Of a DNA stretch of 64,000 nucleotides, positions 3,682 through 63,981 are shown in pieces. Position numbers and translations under genes: made by a program. Source of the DNA: Gemmatimonadota bacterium (GTDB lineage Bacteria; Gemmatimonadota; Gemmatimonadetes; Longimicrobiales; Gaopeijiaceae). Numbering within the stretch: the first letter of the stretch is position 1; the number at the start of each line of letters is the position of its first letter. The notes under the pieces are model-generated. The model was not told where the DNA came from, searched no databases, and worked only from the letters and a program-made list of their open reading frames with translations. The stretch spans positions 87,165 through 151,164 of the forward strand of contig JAGWBQ010000001.1 of assembly GCA_021295815.1 (NCBI GenBank), in the 5' to 3' direction.

Positions 3682-5285
3682 GTTCGCGTGGCTCGGGCGG
3701 CTCGGAAGGGAACCCGGGCCGCCGCGTCTCGCTCGCCCCCGATCTCGAGATCTCCCCGATTGTGACCGGACTCTGGCAGATCGCCGATGCGGAACGGGAC
3801 GGCGAGGCCGGAGGAGAGCGGATCGCCTCCTGGACCCGGGTCCTGGGAGAATACGCCGACCGCGGTCTCACCACCTTCGACATGGCCGATCACTACGGAT
3901 CCGCCGAACTGATCGCCGGTCGCTTCGAGGCGACGGATCCCGGTCGCGCGCAGTTCCTGACCAAGTGGGTGCCGTCCCCGGGAACGACGGTGCCGGGAGC
4001 TGCAAGAGAAGCCGTCGAACGGGCGCTGGAACGGATGGGAGGGCGGATCGACCTCCTTCAATACCACGCCTGGAGCTACGACGACCCGGTCTGGCTCGAT
4101 CACGTCTTCGACCTCGACGAACTCCGAAACGAGGGACTGATCGGCCATCTCGGCGTCACCAATATGGACGCGATCCACCTGCGCATGCTACTGGCCAGCG
4201 GCGTGAAGGTCGCGACCAACCAGGTGTCGCTCTCCCTGCTCGACCGACGCGCCTGCGGCGCTCTGACCGAGCTCTGCCTCGAGAGCGGCGTCGGGCTCCT
4301 CGCCCACGGCACTCTGGCGGGCGGACTGCTGACGAGGCGAGCGCTCGATATGAAGGAGGCGCCGGCATCAGAGATGCCCACCTGGTCGCTGATGAAGTAC
4401 CGCCGGTTCGTGGATGCCGCCGGGGGTTGGAGTCGCTTCAGGAAGGCTCTCGACACACTCGTGGTCGTCGCGGAACGGATTGGTGCCGACCCTGCCCCGG
4501 TCGCGATGCGCTGGGCGCTCGATTCACCGGCCGTGGCCGCCGTCATCGTGGGTTCTCGGCTGAGCGCGAGCGACCCCGACAATCGCGGCGTCTTCGACGT
4601 GGAGCTCGGAAAGGAAGACCGCCGCGAACTGGATGCGGCTTTCGGCGAGCTCGACCCAATCCCCGGAGACTGCGGCGACGAGTACCGGCGTCCGCCCTTC
4701 CTGACCGCCGCCGGCGACCTGAGCCATCACTTCGACCGCCTGCCGAATCCATACGAGGTGCGCAGGGCGGCAGAGCATTTCGAGAACCCCGCCGACATCC
4801 CCTCCGGTGCGGGGGGGAAGCGGACGTGCGACCTCGGGCCAGGCGACTCGAACGGCTCGCGCACGACGGACGCGGAACGGCTCTTCGTATCGAGCGGGAC
4901 CGTCTGGGAGGACATGGCGGGCTACTCACGGGCGATTGGGGAGGGTCGGCGGGTCTGGGTGTCCGGAACGACCGCCACCCATGCGAACCGGCTGATCGGC
5001 GGAAACTGCGCGGCCTCTCAGACCCACTTCTGCATCGATAAGATCGCCGGCGCGCTCCGCTCGCTCGGCGCCTCGCTGGAGGACGTCGTCCGCACCCGGC
5101 TCTTCGTCGCCGACATGTCGCGCTGGGAGGAGGTGGCCCGGGCGCACGGCCGGCGCTTCGGCAAGATCCGACCGGCCAACACGCTGGTCGGCGCCGAGCT
5201 CGTCGGCGAGGGCTACCTCGTGGAGATCGAGGCGGAGGCGGTCGTTCGGTCGACCGAAGCTGAACTGGACGACGCGAAATCGTAG
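3678..5285 (+). CDS. Aldo/keto reductase fused to a RidA (YjgF/YER057c)-like domain
   Basis: The 535-residue cytoplasmic protein joins two domains that are usually separate. Residues about 20-345 form an aldo/keto reductase with a recognisable tetrad: D68 and Y73 in FDMADHYGSAE, K96 in FLTKW, H130 in LLQYH. Residues about 400-525 resemble the RidA/YjgF enamine-imine deaminase fold (RTRLFVADMSRW, then RPANTLVGAELV and EIEAEAVV). In RidA proper the key arginine sits in a PARS-like motif; here the aligned position is N501 in RPANT. By family knowledge this predicts loss of 2-aminoacrylate deaminase activity, as in Rid4-7 groups. The ATG at 3678 overlaps the permease stop. A role in reducing or detoxifying a reactive carbonyl or imine from an imported amine is inference. 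Confidence 0.85.
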   Translation: MSSRGSGGSEGNPGRRVSLAPDLEISPIVTGLWQIADAERDGEAGGERIASWTRVLGEYADRGLTTFDMADHYGSAELIAGRFEATDPGRAQFLTKWVPSPGTTVPGAAREAVERALERMGGRIDLLQYHAWSYDDPVWLDHVFDLDELRNEGLIGHLGVTNMDAIHLRMLLASGVKVATNQVSLSLLDRRACGALTELCLESGVGLLAHGTLAGGLLTRRALDMKEAPASEMPTWSLMKYRRFVDAAGGWSRFRKALDTLVVVAERIGADPAPVAMRWALDSPAVAAVIVGSRLSASDPDNRGVFDVELGKEDRRELDAAFGELDPIPGDCGDEYRRPPFLTAAGDLSHHFDRLPNPYEVRRAAEHFENPADIPSGAGGKRTCDLGPGDSNGSRTTDAERLFVSSGTVWEDMAGYSRAIGEGRRVWVSGTTATHANRLIGGNCAASQTHFCIDKIAGALRSLGASLEDVVRTRLFVADMSRWEEVARAHGRRFGKIRPANTLVGAELVGEGYLVEIEAEAVVRSTEAELDDAKS

Positions 5286-8704: not shown

Positions 8705-9820
8705 ATGCACAAGCTTCGACCGATGACCGGCAGAACCTTCACCCGCCGCGAATTCGCCGCCACCGCAGCGCTCGGAGCGAGCGGATTCGCTCTCCTGGGT
8801 GGCTGCGCCGAGCCGGCTCCCGCCCCGCGACCTCTCCGCATCCTGATTCTGGGGGGGACGGGCTTCGTGGGCCCCAACCAGGTCCGCACGGCGCTCGCGC
8901 ACGGACACGAGATCACCCTCTTCAATCGCGGCCGGACCAACCCGGAACTCTTCCCGGATCTCGAGACCCTCATCGGCGACCGGAACGACGACCTTTCGGC
9001 TCTGGAAGGGGATCGCGAGTGGGACGTGGTGATCGACAACCCGGCCAACCTGCCCAGATGGGTGCGCACCGCGACCGAGGTTCTTGCCGGACGGGTCGGC
9101 AAGTACGCCTACGTCTCCTCCACCGGCGTCTACGTTCCCTACCTCACTACCGACATCACCGAGGATGCCCCGACCGACACCATCGAGGATCCCGAGACCG
9201 AAGTGGTCGACGGGCGCACGTTCGGAGCTCTCAAGGCTCTGTGCGAGGACGCGACCCGGGAGGCCTTCCCCGAAAACCACCTAGTCTTCCGTCCCACCTA
9301 CATTGTCGGCCCCGGCGATCCCACCGACCGCTTCACCTACTGGCCGGTCCGCCTTGGCCGCGGCGGCGAGACGCTTGCGCCCGGGGATCCCGCCGACCCG
9401 ATGCAGCACGTCGACGTCCGCGATCTGTCTGCATTCATGATTGATGCGATCGAGAACGACCTCACCGGCACCCTGAACGTCGTCGGACCGCGTGAGCCTC
9501 TGACCATGGGCGGTCTGCTCGAGCGGACTCGGGCGGCCGTCGAATCCGACGCCACGCTCGTCTGGGTCGACGCCGAGTTCCTCAGGGAGCACGGCCACTT
9601 CGCGGTGACCTACTGGACCAAGCCCGAGGGGGACTACTTGGGGATGATGCAGGTGAACGGCGACCGCTCGTTCGCGGCCGGCTTCGATCCGCGTCCTTTG
9701 GAGGAGACTGCTCGGGACACGCTCGCCTGGTTCTCGCTGGAGGAGCCTAGGGAGCTTCGGTCCGGATTCGCGCCCGAAGAGGAGGCCGAGCTTCTCGCCG
9801 CCTTCCCTTCCGCAGGCTAA
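8705..9820 (+). CDS. Tat-exported lipoprotein of the NAD-dependent epimerase/dehydratase (SDR) family
   Basis: The 371-residue product starts with a combined twin-arginine and lipoprotein signal: TRREF with R14-R15, a hydrophobic stretch, then LLGGC with the lipidated cysteine at 34. The mature part is an extended SDR: the dinucleotide loop GGTGFVG lies at 50-56, and YVSSTGVYVPY follows near 135. The usual YxxxK is not clear, so reductase activity is doubtful. I used the ATG at 8705; a GTG at 8639 overlapping the previous stop would add an unlikely leader, and ATG 8723 also keeps the signal. A paralogue lies at 55437-56582. Such isoflavone-reductase/CSP41-like proteins are usually cytoplasmic, so export already bound to cofactor by Tat is the notable point. 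The substrate is unknown. Confidence 0.8.
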   Translation: MHKLRPMTGRTFTRREFAATAALGASGFALLGGCAEPAPAPRPLRILILGGTGFVGPNQVRTALAHGHEITLFNRGRTNPELFPDLETLIGDRNDDLSALEGDREWDVVIDNPANLPRWVRTATEVLAGRVGKYAYVSSTGVYVPYLTTDITEDAPTDTIEDPETEVVDGRTFGALKALCEDATREAFPENHLVFRPTYIVGPGDPTDRFTYWPVRLGRGGETLAPGDPADPMQHVDVRDLSAFMIDAIENDLTGTLNVVGPREPLTMGGLLERTRAAVESDATLVWVDAEFLREHGHFAVTYWTKPEGDYLGMMQVNGDRSFAAGFDPRPLEETARDTLAWFSLEEPRELRSGFAPEEEAELLAAFPSAG

Positions 9821-12460: not shown

Positions 12461-15082
12461 ATGAAGCAGGCCTTGGCGTTCATCTTCAGCGTGGGAATCG
12501 CGCTGGTCGTATCGGCCGAACGCCGTGCGGAGTCGACCGGCGACGGAGCAACCGGGCAGGTTGCGGTCCTCGTTCCGGCCAGTACGTCCGAGATACCGGG
12601 ATCGGCGGGCGCATCCGGTGGGCGGGATCCGGCGAGCGCCGACGCCGGCGCCAAGGTCGGCGCACCAGATGCCGACATGGCCGAAACCCGTCCCGCCGCT
12701 CGATCCGACGAGCGGACGGGCACCGGCAATCCTCCCACCGAAGACTCCTACCCTGCCGCCTTCTTCCCGCCGGTTGAGCCGGAGATCGATCCGCCGGCGG
12801 TCGTGCAGCGCTACTGCACCCGCTGTCACTCCGAAACCAACCCGCGCGGCAGTCTGAGCCTGGTTGCGTTCGACGACGAGAGCGCACTCGCGGAGCCCGA
12901 GCGAACCGAGCGGATGATCCGCAAGCTCCGAGCGGGCATGATGCCGCCTCCCGGTGCGCGCAGACCTCGCGGAGACACTCTGACCCAGGTCGCGCTCCAG
13001 CTCGAGACCATGCTCGACGGGGCGGCCGAGGGTGCCATCAATCCGGGAACGCGCTCGTTCCAGCGGCTGAACCGCGCCGAATACGAACGGGTCGTCCTCG
13101 ATCTGCTCGATCTCGAGGTTGACGCCGCCGACTGGCTCCCGCTCGATCAGATGAGCGCCAACTTCGACAATCACGCCGACGCCCAGTCGCTCTCGCCCAC
13201 CCTGCTTGAAGCCTACCTGAACGCCGCCGGAGACATCAGCCGCATGGCCGTCGGCGATCCGGGAGCGCCTGCGGTGGCCGCGACCTACAAGAATTCCGAA
13301 TACGTCTCGCAGCATCCGTGGGACCACGTGCCCGGAACCCCCATCGGGACCCGGGGCGGCCTCGCGGCGGATCACGTCTTCCCCGCCGACGCGGATTACG
13401 AGTTCGTGCTCACCTTCTCCGGCGGTTCCAACTCGCGCATGGAGGACGTGGACGTCTCCATCGACGGCCGGAGAGTGGCGCTCGTTCCCTTCACCCGGGT
13501 CGGCGCCGGAGCCGACGGACGAGGCGCGGACGGACTGGCCACGGAGCCGATCTTCGTGCGCGCCGGGCAGCGCCGTGTGGCCGCAGCCTTCGTGCGCAGA
13601 GCCGAGGGACCGTACGAGGACCTGATTCGGCCCCACAACTGGTCGATGGCGGGCGGCGGATCCGGAGGCGCGGGGATCACTACCCTGCCCCACCTTCGCG
13701 ACCTCTTGATTCGGGGACCGATCAACGCCACCGGCATCTCGGAGACCCCGAGCCGGAAGCGGATCTTCACGTGTCGTCCGACGAGCGCCGAGACCGCGCC
13801 GGATTGCGCTCGATCCATCATCGGACGTATCGCCGAGCGAGCCTATCGCCGGCCCCTCCGAACCGGCGAACTGGACGGCCTGCTGCGCTTCTATCGCGAC
13901 GGCGCGGCCGACGGCTTCGAGACCGGCATTCGCAGTGCGCTGGAAGCGATCCTGGCCTCCCCGCACTTCGTGCTTCGGGTCGAACGCGAACCCGCGGACG
14001 CCTCGCCGGGCGAGAGCTACCGCGTCGGACAGCTCGCACTCGCATCCCGACTTTCGTTCTTCCTCTGGGGCACCCTCCCCGACGACGCACTCCGCGACGC
14101 CGCCGTACGCGGAGAGCTGGATCGCGCCGGGCTTTCACGCCAGGCGGAGCGCATGCTCGAGGATCCCCGGGCCGAAGCGCTCGCGACCAGGTTCGCCGCC
14201 CAATGGCTCAGGCTTCAGGATCTGGAGAAGATCCGCCCCGACCCCAACTTCTATCCCAACTTCGACGAAGGTCTCTCCCTCGACATGCGCAGGGAGACCG
14301 AGCTCTTCTTCTCCGACCTGGTTCGGCGCGACGCCTCGGTCCTCGAAGTGCTCAGCGCAGGCCACACCTTCCTGAACGAGCGGCTGGCGGCGCATTACGG
14401 CATCCCCGGAGTCTCGGGCGACCGCTTCCGGCGCGTGGAGTATCCCGAGGGGACTCCACGGGTGGGGCTTCTCGGCCACGGCAGCGTACTGGTCCAGACC
14501 TCGATGGCCAACCGCACCTCGCCGGTTCTGCGCGGCAAGTGGGTCATGGAGGTTCTGATGGGCGCTCCCCCTCCGCCTCCGCCTCCGGACGTTCCCGATC
14601 TCGAAGACACCGAGGCCGCCGTCGACGGCAAGTTCCTGACCACCCGGGAACGCCTGGAAATCCATCGTCGTGACCCGACCTGCAACTCGTGTCACCGCAT
14701 GATGGACCCGATCGGACTCGCGCTCGACGGCTTCGACGTCACCGGCAAGCTCCGCAGGCTGGAACAGGGACGCCCGGTCGACACCCGCGGCGACTTTTAC
14801 GACGGCACGCCCATCGCCAACGCCAACGAACTGGCCGCGGTTCTCGCCAAGCGTCCGATCCCGCTGGTCCGCAACTTCGCCGAGAACCTGATGTCGTACG
14901 CGCTCGGACGACGCGTGCAGTACTTCGATCAACCGACCATCCGCAAGATCACCGGCGAAGCCGAGGCCGACGGCTACCCGATTCGCTCGCTCATACTCGG
15001 CGTCGTCGCCAGCGACGCCTTTCAAATGAAGGTCGCCGGCCCTTCGCGGCAGACCGATACCGAACCCGAGAACGAACGATGA
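12461..15082 (+). CDS. Cassette 1 cytochrome: planctomycete-type PSCyt/PSD protein (DUF1587-1595-1592-1588-1585)
   Basis: The 873-residue exported protein begins with a signal peptide (residues 1-19) and a low-complexity spacer. The first haem c site is CTRCH with C119, C122 and H123. Then come a PSD3/DUF1587 domain (about 205-270), a beta-rich domain (about 300-410), PSD5/DUF1595 (about 437-510), PSD4/DUF1592 (about 525-650), PSCyt3/DUF1588 with a seven-proline run (GAPPPPPPPDVP, near 705) and a second site CNSCH (C741, C744, H745), and PSD2/DUF1585 (about 785-855). A two-haem periplasmic cytochrome is likely; the reaction is unknown for the family. The stop overlaps the HXXSHH gene start as ATGA. 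It is clearly paralogous over its length to 30816-33413. Confidence 0.9.
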   Translation: MKQALAFIFSVGIALVVSAERRAESTGDGATGQVAVLVPASTSEIPGSAGASGGRDPASADAGAKVGAPDADMAETRPAARSDERTGTGNPPTEDSYPAAFFPPVEPEIDPPAVVQRYCTRCHSETNPRGSLSLVAFDDESALAEPERTERMIRKLRAGMMPPPGARRPRGDTLTQVALQLETMLDGAAEGAINPGTRSFQRLNRAEYERVVLDLLDLEVDAADWLPLDQMSANFDNHADAQSLSPTLLEAYLNAAGDISRMAVGDPGAPAVAATYKNSEYVSQHPWDHVPGTPIGTRGGLAADHVFPADADYEFVLTFSGGSNSRMEDVDVSIDGRRVALVPFTRVGAGADGRGADGLATEPIFVRAGQRRVAAAFVRRAEGPYEDLIRPHNWSMAGGGSGGAGITTLPHLRDLLIRGPINATGISETPSRKRIFTCRPTSAETAPDCARSIIGRIAERAYRRPLRTGELDGLLRFYRDGAADGFETGIRSALEAILASPHFVLRVEREPADASPGESYRVGQLALASRLSFFLWGTLPDDALRDAAVRGELDRAGLSRQAERMLEDPRAEALATRFAAQWLRLQDLEKIRPDPNFYPNFDEGLSLDMRRETELFFSDLVRRDASVLEVLSAGHTFLNERLAAHYGIPGVSGDRFRRVEYPEGTPRVGLLGHGSVLVQTSMANRTSPVLRGKWVMEVLMGAPPPPPPPDVPDLEDTEAAVDGKFLTTRERLEIHRRDPTCNSCHRMMDPIGLALDGFDVTGKLRRLEQGRPVDTRGDFYDGTPIANANELAAVLAKRPIPLVRNFAENLMSYALGRRVQYFDQPTIRKITGEAEADGYPIRSLILGVVASDAFQMKVAGPSRQTDTEPENER

Positions 15083-24654: not shown

Positions 24655-24999
24655 CCCGGCGGGCGGCGGCAACACCGCGGGACGAGATCGAGTCGTCCTG
24701 TTTTCGCGGTGACCTTTCCATATACACGACGACCTCGCCGCCTGGGCGGGGTTCGTTGGCATCGGTCATGGGGTCGGCTCCGCTCTCGGTTTTCGCGGTT
24801 GGCATCGTGTCACCCCCGTTCCTCGCGGTCATTCGCCCCGGTCCGCTCGAAGCCCTGCGGCGCCCCCGGCGTACCGTCTCCCGGCCACCGCTCACCCTGT
24901 GATCCGGTCGCAACTTCCCCCGCATGCCCTTCTCCCGGTTGCGTCCCGCTCGACGGCTCGCCAAGTTTACGGAAGCTTCCACTCCCACACCGTCCCGCC
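24655..24999. other. 345-base intergenic region with nothing recognised
   Basis: This GC-rich stretch lies between the DUF5107 and S9 peptidase genes. The only non-shadow frame is on the minus strand inside 24596-24988 (up to 130 codons) and shows no family, signal or ribosome site. An AT-richer spot (tttccatatacac, 24715-24727) could hold a promoter. Confidence 0.4.
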
Positions 25000-27666
25000 A
25001 TGCCCGACACTATCCGCGCTCTTCGCTTCACGCTCATCCGCGCCACGCTTGCGGTTCTTCTCGCCGCCGTCGCGGCTCCCGTCGCGCTCCATGCCCAGGA
25101 CGCCGACGTCCAAGACGCGACCGACGGCCCCCAGGCGGTGCTCGCGGCGAAGGACTGGGTCGCGCCCCCCGACGTGATCGCCGACGCCGTGCTCGCTCCG
25201 CGTCACCTGAACGTGACCCTCTCCAACATCTCGCCCGACAAGACGCGCTTCCTGGTCCAGCTGTCCGACGGTCCGGTGACCATGGACCGTTTCTCGCTCC
25301 CGTTCGACGAGCTCGGCGGCCAGTTCTTCGACTTCCGTGCGAATCGCAACCGCAACCTCACGATTCGGAATTCGGTCGGGATCAGACTCATAGCCGCGGA
25401 CGACGGCTCGACGACCGAGGTGGAAGTTCCGAACGGCGCGCGGGTCTCGAACGCAAGCTGGTCTCCGGACGGCTCGCAGGTGGCCTTCTTCGTGCACGAG
25501 CCGGACGCGACCCACATTCACGTCGCCGACGCCGAAAGCGGCGACTCTCGGCGCGTCACCCGGACTCCGGTGCTCGCGACCTTCGTGACCTCCTTCGAGT
25601 GGACCGGCTCGGGCGGCGAGATCGCGACCGTTCTCATCCCGGAGGACCGTTCGCCACGCCCCCTGGCCCCGCAGGTGCCCGCCGGACCACAGGTAAAGCA
25701 GACCGAGGAGGGCGACAACGTGCTGCGCACCTACGCTTCGCTCATGGCGACGCCGCACGACGAGCAGCTCCTCGAATGGCACGTCACCGGCCAGCTTGCG
25801 GTGATAGACGTCGAGAGCCGGACCGCGACGACCGTCGGCGAACCGGCGATGATCCGCTCCTTCGACTTCTCGCCCGACGGGAGGCACGCCAGGGTGACGA
25901 CCATGCGGCGTCCGTTCAGCTACATCGTTCCGGTCACGTCGTTCGGACGAGTGGAAGAGGTGTGGGACCGCAACGGCGCCGTACTTGTCGAACTGGACGT
26001 CACCGAGCTGAACACCGGGCTCAGGGGCGCGCCCGCCGCGCCCGGAGTGGCCGGCGAAGAGGAAGAGCCCGACCGTCGCCAGCTTGCGTGGCGGGCGGAC
26101 GGGGCCGGCCTGACCTTCCTGCAAATGGAGCCCGCTCCCGACGAGGAAGACGACGCGGACGACACGGCCGCCGACACCGAGGACGACGAGGAGGACTCGG
26201 GTCCGAACCGCCGAATGGATCGGGTCATGCTCTGGAGCCCTCCCTTCGACGACGCGAGCATGAGCACGGTCTTCGAGTCCAGCAACCGGATCTCCAGCCA
26301 TCGCTTCTCTCCCGACCACGACTGGCTCTTCCTCACCCAGCGTCCCGGCGGTGGCGGCGGCGGCTTCGGAGGTGGAGCCGCCCGAGGCGGCAAGGTGCGC
26401 GAATACGCGGTCGATCTGGCCGACCCGGACACCGAACACACCCTCGTCGAATACGATTCCGACGACTTCTACGCCAACCCGGGCTCGCTCGTCATGGAGA
26501 CGGGAAGAGTCGCGGCTTTCGCCAGATTCGGCGGCGGCGGCGGCTCGGCCAACGTCCTGCTCTCCTCGGACGGCGGCTCGGTCTTCTTCGCCGGCACCCA
26601 GTACCACGAAGATCCGCTGGAGGAGGGACCGAAGGCCTTCCTCGACCGCGTGGTCATCGCCACCGGCGACAAGGAGCGCATCTACGAAGGAAGCAACGAG
26701 GACGTGTCCGAGCGGCTGAGCGTGGTGCTCGACGCCGACATGCCGACCATGATCGTCAACCGTTCATCGCCCACCGAGATCGGGCAGTCTTTCCTGGTCG
26801 GAGCGGACGGGGATGCGGTCCGGCTCACGAACAACGTCGATTACACGCCCGACGTCACCATGGCGCCCCGCGAACGTTTCACGGTAGAGAGGCCAGATGG
26901 ATTCCGCTTCCTGGTCAACGTCACCCTGCCCCCGGATTACCGCGAGGGCGAGCGCAGACCCGCCATGTTCTGGTTCTATCCTCGCGAGTACGAGGATCAG
27001 GAGAGCTACGACGAGCGCGGACGCACCTTCGACAAGAACAGCTTCCCGGGCTTCGGGACCCGTTCGATGGAGTACCTGGTGCGGCTGGGATACGTCGTGG
27101 TCGAGCCCGACGCTCCCATCGTGGGAGAGGCGGGTCGGATGAACAACAACTACGAGCACGACCTGCGCAACAACCTCGCCGCAGTGATCGACGAGTTGGA
27201 CCGGCGCGGCTATATCGACAGGCAGCGCCTGGGGCTCGGCGGCCACTCCTACGGCGCCTTCGGCACCGTCAACGCCATGGTGCATACGCCCTTCTTCAAG
27301 GCCGGGATCGCAGGGGACGGCAACTACAACCGCACCTTCACCCCCTTGGGCTTTCAGAGCGAACGCAGACATTTCTGGGATGCGCGCGAGGTCTACCTCG
27401 GCATGTCGCCTTTCGTCTACGCGAACAACCTGACCGGCGCCCTGCTCATGTACCACGGCCTGAACGACCAGAACGTGGGCACGGCTCCCGACCACTCGCC
27501 GAGGCTCTTCCACGCTCTCAACGGTCTGGGCAAGGACGCCGCGATGTACCTCTACCCGTTCGAGGGCCACGGACCAGCCACCCGCGAGACCATTCTCGAT
27601 CTCTGGGCGCGCTGGACCGCCTGGCTCGATGTGCACCTCGGGGAGCCTACGCAGCCGATCACCTGA
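25000..27666 (+). CDS. Secreted S9-family (prolyl oligopeptidase-type) peptidase
   Basis: The 888-residue product starts at ATG 25000, which gives a clean signal peptide (LAVLLAAVAAPVALHAQ). The N-terminal two thirds are a TolB-like propeller (WSPDGSQVAFFVHEP, FSPDGRHARVTTM, RFSPDHDWLFLTQ) interrupted by acidic and glycine-rich loops near 385 and 450. The C-terminal alpha/beta-hydrolase domain has the triad S750 in GGHSYGAFG, D823 in HGLNDQN and H857 in FEGHG. Length and layout fit the large periplasmic S9 group related to glutamyl peptidases. It should cut short peptides in the periplasm. A second S9 gene lies at 58203-60329. The neighbours are not obviously part of one pathway. Confidence 0.9.
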   Translation: MPDTIRALRFTLIRATLAVLLAAVAAPVALHAQDADVQDATDGPQAVLAAKDWVAPPDVIADAVLAPRHLNVTLSNISPDKTRFLVQLSDGPVTMDRFSLPFDELGGQFFDFRANRNRNLTIRNSVGIRLIAADDGSTTEVEVPNGARVSNASWSPDGSQVAFFVHEPDATHIHVADAESGDSRRVTRTPVLATFVTSFEWTGSGGEIATVLIPEDRSPRPLAPQVPAGPQVKQTEEGDNVLRTYASLMATPHDEQLLEWHVTGQLAVIDVESRTATTVGEPAMIRSFDFSPDGRHARVTTMRRPFSYIVPVTSFGRVEEVWDRNGAVLVELDVTELNTGLRGAPAAPGVAGEEEEPDRRQLAWRADGAGLTFLQMEPAPDEEDDADDTAADTEDDEEDSGPNRRMDRVMLWSPPFDDASMSTVFESSNRISSHRFSPDHDWLFLTQRPGGGGGGFGGGAARGGKVREYAVDLADPDTEHTLVEYDSDDFYANPGSLVMETGRVAAFARFGGGGGSANVLLSSDGGSVFFAGTQYHEDPLEEGPKAFLDRVVIATGDKERIYEGSNEDVSERLSVVLDADMPTMIVNRSSPTEIGQSFLVGADGDAVRLTNNVDYTPDVTMAPRERFTVERPDGFRFLVNVTLPPDYREGERRPAMFWFYPREYEDQESYDERGRTFDKNSFPGFGTRSMEYLVRLGYVVVEPDAPIVGEAGRMNNNYEHDLRNNLAAVIDELDRRGYIDRQRLGLGGHSYGAFGTVNAMVHTPFFKAGIAGDGNYNRTFTPLGFQSERRHFWDAREVYLGMSPFVYANNLTGALLMYHGLNDQNVGTAPDHSPRLFHALNGLGKDAAMYLYPFEGHGPATRETILDLWARWTAWLDVHLGEPTQPIT

Positions 27667-27799
27667 CCGGAGCGCCACACACGTTCGACTCCGCTTGGCG
27701 AGCCCGTCCGACGCGACGCGCCCGGAACGATCAAACGCTGCGCGCGTATGAACAGGAAAGATCCCACGTGTCGAACAACGTTTCCCGGGAGGATGTGAA

Positions 27800-28294
27800 A
27801 TGAGAAGGTTCAGACAGCGAATCGAAGACCAGCGCACCCTCGCGGTTGTCGGGGCTTCCGCCCTGGGAGGGATCGTGATGCTCGTGGCGATCCCGACGCT
27901 GATCATGGGGTTCGCGGAGGGCGAGGCGGACTACGTGCAGTTGGTCGAGCTGCGGCCCGAGCCCGATGCTCTCGAGATCGAACCTCTCGCAATCGCCGAG
28001 GCCCGCGAGATCGCAATCGCCGAGGCCCGCGAGATGATCGACCGAAAGAACGTCGGCTCGGTGAGTATGGCGTTCGCCGAGGACGGTTCAACCATTACGG
28101 TATCCGGTACGGTATCCGGTCCGTCTCATCGAGCACGGGTGACGCGCGAGTTTCTGGTCAAGGACCTGACGGAGATCCTCGCCGCCGAGTCCGTCGAAGT
28201 CACCGTCGACTCCGAGACGGGTTCCCTGTCATTCGACCTTGGGGACAGAAAGAAGGTCATCGTGTACAGGCCGCAAGCCGAAGGCAACAGGTAG
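27800..28294 (+). CDS. Small single-pass membrane protein with in-frame tandem repeats
   Basis: The 164-residue product is not recognised. ATG 27800 lies seven bases behind GGGAGG, a good ribosome site. A basic cytoplasmic tip (about 14 residues) is followed by one membrane segment (about 15-37) and a periplasmic part of about 125 residues. The periplasmic part contains a duplicated octapeptide (IAEAREIA IAEARE-) from a perfect 24-base tandem repeat, and TVSGTVSG from a perfect 12-base tandem repeat. The rest is alternating strand and helix with many Glu, Asp and Val. The stop is one base before the probable TTG start of the serine hydrolase, so the two are likely co-translated. Confidence 0.7.
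   Translation: MRRFRQRIEDQRTLAVVGASALGGIVMLVAIPTLIMGFAEGEADYVQLVELRPEPDALEIEPLAIAEAREIAIAEAREMIDRKNVGSVSMAFAEDGSTITVSGTVSGPSHRARVTREFLVKDLTEILAAESVEVTVDSETGSLSFDLGDRKKVIVYRPQAEGNR
27987..28034 (+). repeat. Perfect tandem duplication of 24 bases
   Basis: The unit at 27987-28010 (tcgcaatcgccg then aggcccgcgaga) is repeated exactly at 28011-28034. Being a multiple of three, it duplicates eight residues in the periplasmic stalk of the small membrane protein. Confidence 0.95.
28096..28119 (+). repeat. Perfect tandem duplication of 12 bases
   Basis: tacggtatccgg occurs twice in direct succession and encodes TVSGTVSG. It lies 61 bases after the 24-base duplication in the same gene and also keeps the frame. 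Confidence 0.95.
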
Positions 28295-28295
28295 C

Positions 28296-29978
28296 TTGCG
28301 GAGCCGACCGCTCGCCTCCGCTTGGACGGGCTGTCTTCTCCTACTCGTATCCGCCGACGCGTCAGCCCTTCAGGAAGGCGGCCCGTCCCTTGAGCTCGAT
28401 GACTCCCAAACCGCCGCGATAGACTCGATCTTCTCGCGCTGGGACAACACCTCGGGCGCGGGCTGTGCGGTCGGTGTCGGCACCATCGGAATCGGCAGCG
28501 GTCCGCTAAGCGTCTTCGAGCGCGCCTACGGCATGGCGAATCTGGAATACGCCATCGCCAACACCCCCTCCACCGTCTTCGAGGGCGGATCGGTATCCAA
28601 GCAGTTCACAGCAGCGGCCATCGTGCTGCTCGCTCTCGAGGGAGAGCTCTCGCTGGACGGCGACGTGCGCGATCACGTGCCCGAGCTCCCGGACTACGGC
28701 GAGACCGTCACCATCCGTCACCTCCTCACACACACCAGCGGGCTGCGCGACTGGGGGTCGGTCGCGGCGATCTCGGGCTGGGGTCGGGAGCGGCGCAGCC
28801 ACGATCACGACTGGGCGCTCGACATCATGTCCCGCCAGACCGCCCTCAATTTCTCGCCGGGGACCCAGTACTCCTACTCGAACTCCGGCTACAACCTGGC
28901 TGCCGTCATCGTCGCCCGCGTTTCGGGTCGGTCGTTCGCCGATTTCTCCCGAGAGAGGATCTTCGAGCCCCTCGGCCTCGGCAGCACCCAGTGGCGGGAC
29001 GACTATCGGAGGCCGGTTCCCGGAAGAAGCACGGGCTACAGGCCCGCCGGCGGCGGGTGGCTCATCAACCATCCCATCGAGCATGTGCACGGCAACGGCG
29101 GCATCCTCACCACGGTCGGCGATCTCATCGCCTGGACCCACGCGCTCGCAACTGGGGAAGGGCTGGGCGGAGCACCCTTCGTCGAGGCCATGCACGAGCG
29201 CGGGACTCTGACGGACGGCTCGCGGATCCCCTACGCCAGCGGGATCGTGCACGGCGAGCTGGGCGGCGCGGCTTCCGTGACCCACACGGGTTCCACGGCC
29301 GGTTACCGAGCCTTCCTCGGTCGCTATCCCGACCACGACCTGACCGTGGCCATGCTCTGCAACGCCGCCAACGCTCCCACCGGAGGAACCGGCAGCGCGG
29401 TGGCGAGAGTCGTTCTGGGCGGGACCGCGGCGAACGCGCAGCGGGCGACGGCGATCGACATGAGCCAGGAATCTCTCGCCGAATACTCGGGACTCTACCG
29501 CAACCCGAACACCGGCACGCCCAAGAGGCTGAGGGTATCGGCCGGCGTCCTGCGGGAAGGGCCCGTGGAGCTGGTTCCGGTCGCGGAAGGACGGTTCAGC
29601 GTGGGAGGCGGGGCGCGCCACTACGTCTTCATGCCTGCGGATTCCGGCAGACCGACCCTCGTGGTCGACTCCTGGGAGTATACCGACGAGCGGTTCGAGC
29701 CGGTCGATGAGTGGCTTCCGAGCGCCGAAGAGCTGGCCGGATTCGCCGGCGTCCACGAAAGCGACGAGGCCGAGACGGTCTTCACGTTCTCGGTCGAGGA
29801 CGGACGACTCGTTCTCACGCGACGACCCGGCAACGTAACGGCGCTCAATCCGGTCTATGAGGACGCCTTCCAAATGCCCGGGGGGACGCTGCGCTTTCGT
29901 CGGGACGCGGACGGCGAGGTCTCGGGTCTCCGTCTGAGCGTCAGCCGCGTCTTCGACATGCGCTTCGAGAGGCGGTAG
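28296..29978 (+). CDS. Serine beta-lactamase-like hydrolase (class C / family S12 type)
   Basis: The 560-residue product has a signal peptide (SAWTGCLLLLVSADASA). I placed the start at TTG 28296, directly after the previous stop; a GTG at 28239 would give a 579-residue form whose extra residues only read through the neighbour in another frame. The beta-lactamase domain (about 40-370) has S99-V-S-K102 (SxxK), YSYSNSGYN (YxN) and HTGSTAGYR in place of KTG, as in esterase EstB and D-aminopeptidase-like members. The C-terminal 170 residues form a beta-rich lipocalin-like extension. A periplasmic esterase or peptidase is more likely than antibiotic resistance. Confidence 0.88.
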   Translation: MRSRPLASAWTGCLLLLVSADASALQEGGPSLELDDSQTAAIDSIFSRWDNTSGAGCAVGVGTIGIGSGPLSVFERAYGMANLEYAIANTPSTVFEGGSVSKQFTAAAIVLLALEGELSLDGDVRDHVPELPDYGETVTIRHLLTHTSGLRDWGSVAAISGWGRERRSHDHDWALDIMSRQTALNFSPGTQYSYSNSGYNLAAVIVARVSGRSFADFSRERIFEPLGLGSTQWRDDYRRPVPGRSTGYRPAGGGWLINHPIEHVHGNGGILTTVGDLIAWTHALATGEGLGGAPFVEAMHERGTLTDGSRIPYASGIVHGELGGAASVTHTGSTAGYRAFLGRYPDHDLTVAMLCNAANAPTGGTGSAVARVVLGGTAANAQRATAIDMSQESLAEYSGLYRNPNTGTPKRLRVSAGVLREGPVELVPVAEGRFSVGGGARHYVFMPADSGRPTLVVDSWEYTDERFEPVDEWLPSAEELAGFAGVHESDEAETVFTFSVEDGRLVLTRRPGNVTALNPVYEDAFQMPGGTLRFRRDADGEVSGLRLSVSRVFDMRFERR

Positions 29979-63875: not shown

Positions 63876-63958
63876 TGGGTTTTCTCCAGATGGTCTCACG
63901 ATCTTGCTGTTTGCGGTCGTGTCGGGGGATACGAGGTAGGGCGCTGGGCGGCAACGGG

Positions 63959-63981
63959 CTCCGTCACAGCTCCGTCACAGC
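63959..63981 (+). repeat. Short tandem repeat in the upstream region of the TPR gene
   Basis: The unit ctccgtcacag occurs twice in direct succession near the right edge, about 85 bases upstream of the TPR gene. It may be chance or part of a regulator site. Nothing else is seen in 63876-64000. Confidence 0.5.

Follow-up and report, generated by a model that had tools for sequence, protein, structure and literature searches.

Two exact in-frame tandem duplications in a small predicted membrane protein gene at an S9 peptidase/beta-lactamase-fold locus of a Gemmatimonadota bacterium

Short variable segments that lie within genes and leave the reading frame intact occur in other bacteria, and in the sections of the published account drawn on here membrane-protein genes are singled out among their carriers (PMC2884548); slippage between repeats, mostly shorter than 30 bp, is one of the causes proposed there. 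The two tandem duplications described below resemble those segments in being short and intragenic, in keeping the frame, in lying in a membrane-protein gene and in suggesting slippage between short repeats, but they differ from them in one respect: according to the same sections, the segments of PMC2884548 were found by comparing strains, whereas the duplications here are known from one genome. A second point of comparison is a family of membrane-anchored proteins, called P0001 here and represented by the gene at positions 738–2036 of locus L124, which has relatives in 68 of the 121 genomes from the taxonomic family. By our reading its members carry about three outer repeats (NRLYGTV...RWDRNEGSW), and P0001 has no Pfam match above cut-off (NifT reaches 21.4 bits against 22.6). 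The protein studied here is like this family in its N-terminal anchor motif and, as far as the genus g6 is concerned, in its place between S9 peptidase and beta-lactamase genes; it differs in that the outer repeats are missing, and that tandem units comparable to its own are not seen in the stalks of 20 relatives.

The window, by which we mean the whole 64-kb stretch of DNA analysed, belongs to a 2.47-Mb assembly in 35 contigs that is 96% complete and is the single genome representing its genus. On the forward strand, a small membrane protein gene at 27800–28294 (495 bases, 164 amino acids) was recognized from the list of open reading frames, the GC content by codon position and hydropathy. 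Its GC content at the three codon positions is 0.65, 0.44 and 0.79, resembling that of neighboring genes, and direct reading of the same strand gives a likely ribosome-binding site, GGGAGG, at 27787–27792, 7 bases 5' of the ATG; the open reading frame behaves as coding. A consensus scan found no promoter or terminator around the gene.

Two stretches of this gene are doubled exactly. Tandem Repeats Finder reports a period of 24 bases at 27987–28035 (two copies, 100% identity) and a period of 12 bases at 28096–28120 (again 100% identity), and an exact-repeat script, which gives runs of 25 and 13 bases, agrees on both intervals; the original prediction of two exact in-frame doublings in one 495-base gene is thus borne out by both programs, except that its end coordinate, 28119, was one base short of the position that the doubling reaches. 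Both periods are divisible by three and both duplications lie inside the open reading frame; the longer adds eight residues (IAIAEARE) to a juxtamembrane stretch predicted to be helical, the shorter four (TVSG) in the C-terminal part and not in the stalk. Doubled units can be created by an assembler, and the assembly is indeed fragmented, with its 35 contigs; ordinary sequencing reads are, however, far longer than 49 or 25 bases, the lengths of the two doublings, and both doublings keep the frame, so that we regard an assembly error as extremely unlikely.

The encoded protein begins with a short arginine-rich N-terminus, followed by one transmembrane helix predicted at about residues 13–38 (hydropathy peak at 13–31), a juxtamembrane segment and an 86-residue orphan C-terminal part; hydropathy reveals no second hydrophobic stretch starting past residue 50. 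By the positive-inside rule, arginines ahead of a helix place the N-terminus inside, and because five arginines precede the helix here, the N-terminus is predicted to be inside. With this topology both duplications should sit outside the membrane, and the earlier suggestion that they lengthen the extramembrane part of the protein is upheld, as a prediction, by the single N-terminal hydropathy peak and the five arginines before it. A structure prediction with AlphaFold2, made from the single sequence, yielded a poor model (mean pLDDT 46.8, pTM 0.31), which for that reason is taken as a hint only: beyond the membrane it suggests the order helix, strand, strand, helix, strand, strand, with the 24-base duplication possibly falling within a helix at residues 62–82 and the 12-base duplication at the end of a strand at residues 99–105.

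Exact identity of the copies had been read as a sign that the duplications are recent. The identity itself stands, while recency is less well secured by it: because none of the 36 site pairs differ, the divergence of the copies lies below about 8% (95% limit), and with third positions alone, of which 12 could be compared, the bound is as loose as about 22% (95% limit). A recent origin of both duplications is plausible.

When the window was simulated 30 times with an order-3 Markov model, exact doublings with a period above 12 never appeared (0/30), and those with a period of 12 appeared at 0.03 per 64 kb; both doublings are far above chance. Exact doublings with a period of at least 10 number three in the 64-kb window, the third being an 11-base unit at its very edge (63958–63981). 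The rest of the genome provides a second scale. Among twenty 20-kb stretches, 400 kb in all, in which exact tandem units of at least 12 bases were counted, there are four further places with such units, about one per 100 kb: a 21-base unit at 9255–9296 of L147 and an 18-base unit at 12642–12678 of L164, both in frame in coding-like open reading frames (494 and 500 codons, respectively); a 14-base unit in three tandem copies at 4234–4276 of L158; and, in L148, an array of a 39-base repeat, taken as one place. With the window included, five of these six own-genome units have a period divisible by three. In relatives, 320 kb spread over 34 loci contains one exact tandem unit of at least 12 bases (20 bases, in L100). 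In-frame duplications are therefore ordinary for this genome, since tandem duplications arise about once per 100 kb and others are in frame too. At that rate about 0.005 such duplications are expected per 495-base gene against the two observed here; this is above expectation, but as it was noticed post hoc we call it mildly notable.

These numbers also bear on the earlier suggestion that the gene may differ in length among strains through slippage, and on whether it is a length-variable contingency locus, in which frequent copy-number change by slippage would adjust, from strain to strain, how far the outer part reaches. Exact copies, two of them in one gene and both in the outer portion of a membrane protein, are what such a locus might display. 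However, each unit is present in merely two copies, which is no classical hypermutable array, and in the sampled remainder of the genome such exact duplications number about one per 100 kb. Gain or loss of a unit at 27987–28035 or 28096–28120 leaves the reading frame unaltered, in contrast to what defines a phase-variable gene; with both unit lengths divisible by three, frame switching is excluded for whole-unit changes and there is no on/off switching of the gene. As judged from the sequence, there is no sign of phase variation, and we consider a contingency locus very unlikely.

Relatives of the protein were sought widely. A whole-protein search of 58 genomes gave weak matches in nine, one of them the genome itself. 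Three of the eight non-self matches were inspected, and all three are due to chance, each being antisense to a larger gene (names read from the translations): a DnaE-like gene in L004, a peptidyl-prolyl isomerase-like gene in L005 and a glycosidase-like gene in L009. Within the taxonomic family, the remaining 120 genomes yielded two matches, with E-values of 0.002 (also among the matches from the 58 genomes) and 0.008. We have no reliable homologue of the small protein in the 58 genomes or in the 121 genomes of the taxonomic family; peptide patterns found no relatives in GTDB contigs, and none turned up in viral contigs or plasmids. The last 86 residues have no homologue in 394 genomes of the class (own genome excluded), and no relative carrying the repeated segment was found in the genomes, the GTDB contigs, the viral contigs or the class search. 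Pfam, NCBIfam and PHROGs return nothing reliable for the 164-residue protein, the best PHROG, phrog_3585 ('immunity protein', residues 64–144), having an E-value of 0.011 that we do not regard as reliable; in a sequence search of the PDB the best E-value is 0.29.

The gene's neighbors are easier to place. Upstream, at 24709–27666 on the forward strand, lies a gene for a prolyl oligopeptidase (S9) family protein (PF00326, 85.3 bits against a cut-off of 22.6) that is conserved in relatives, its nearest named relatives being Gemmatimonadota and some of them Longimicrobiales. Downstream on the same strand, in a frame listed as 28239–29978, is a gene for a serine beta-lactamase-fold protein (PF00144, 188.2 bits against a cut-off of 27), the real start of which is probably inside the listed frame. 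A beta-lactamase relative lies downstream in 13 of the 34 loci with an S9 relative. In 11 of these 13 the two matches are separated by at most 456 bases, so that there is no room for a gene of the type found at 27800–28294. L106 has another open reading frame of 287 codons between the two matches, and L124 has P0001 itself, a membrane-anchored protein of 433 residues. In a different arrangement, seen in L093 and L073, the S9 gene is followed by two adjacent lipoprotein-like genes in place of the beta-lactamase gene, and these two have similar N-termini (ACASGGGG...).

Twenty loci of the P0001 family were fetched, L125 being the same contig as L124, to judge from its length and a 100% match. 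An S9 relative stands beside the P0001-type gene in four of them (L125–L128, all of genus g6), and in three of the 20 (L125, L126 and L127) a beta-lactamase relative stands on its other side; in genus g6, a P0001 protein of about 430 residues thus occupies the S9/beta-lactamase position, in the same order as in the window. The window's own genome has no P0001 match. The full-length P0001 profile gives only 11.6 bits with the small protein, and it is at residues 1–78 (27800–28033 on the forward strand), the anchor and stalk, that profile matches point to a P0001-like N-terminus. When these residues are aligned with L124, 2 of 1000 segment-preserving shuffles reach the score, while the L091 fragment alone gives 511 of 1000, i.e. 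chance. A profile built from the N-termini of the 20 members together with the L091 fragment scores 18.5 bits, which 0 of 2000 segment-preserving shuffles reach; with L091 left out, the profile puts the small protein in first place among 3994 frames that come from 464 kb of its own genome (E 6e-5, the next being 1.7). The protein also has the anchor motif E-D-x-K/R-N...G-S-A-L, with T in place of the motif's N. The C-terminal part, by comparison, gives -1.3 bits with the P0001 profile, a score that 285 of 1000 shuffles equal or better, and the outer repeats of the family are absent from it. Given the N-terminal profile match and the lack of similarity in the C-terminal part, the small protein and the P0001 family probably have the anchor in common but not the outer part.

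The spacing between the anchor motif and the first of the outer repeats ranges from 54 to 77 residues across the 20 members and from 64 to 77 within genus g6 alone. On these lengths, the stretch beyond the anchor, where the 24-base duplication lies, would fit a length-tolerant stalk. The differences in length between stalks need not stem from tandem duplication, because tandem DNA units of at least 12 bases, whether exact or nearly so, are absent from this stretch in the 20 members except for one 15-base pair with 3 differences in L127; Tandem Repeats Finder gives weak rows with 6- and 9-base units in the stalks of L129, L131, L135 and L142.

An orphan C-terminal part, a length far below the 430 residues of the protein at this locus in genus g6, and two duplications within one gene might also be expected if constraint on the gene were relaxed or the gene were decaying, so that duplications would accumulate in the course of functional loss without being selected against. 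Against this view, the frame is intact through both duplications, codon-position GC is normal and a ribosome-binding site is present; we therefore consider decay unlikely, though less so than a contingency locus.

We believe it likely instead that these are slippage duplications tolerated in the indel-tolerant outer part of a remodelled, lineage-specific membrane protein of the S9/beta-lactamase locus. According to this explanation, two short tandem duplications would have arisen independently, each from ordinary slippage during replication or from template switching, and both would have been kept as the frame was preserved and the outer segment tolerates insertions. The carrier would be a lineage-specific single-pass membrane protein with a fast-evolving, indel-tolerant outer part; as an occupant of the S9 peptidase/beta-lactamase-fold locus it would be a remodelled one, having the anchor of a related genus's protein but an orphan outer part of its own. 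The 24-base duplication would lengthen the membrane-adjacent stretch, which is variable in length across the P0001 family too, and the 12-base duplication would extend one of the outer strands or loops. Slippage as the mechanism, and tolerance rather than a selected function, are both most likely. A role of DNA hairpins in causing the duplications is unsupported, as folding of the single-stranded DNA gave z-scores of -0.13 to -1.54 and no strong slippage hairpin. We also raise, as a more tentative and rather unlikely idea, that the anchor has been kept at this locus while the outer part was swapped or remade between genera, and that in this lineage in-frame tandem duplication is still enlarging the outer part.

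Striking as the exact repeats look, the genome of this organism produces one of their kind in roughly every 100 kb. It is the probable anchor together with the neighboring genes that places an otherwise orphan gene. If the outer part were shown to be newly built on an old anchor, the locus would illustrate on a small scale how the outer domains of bacterial proteins arise.
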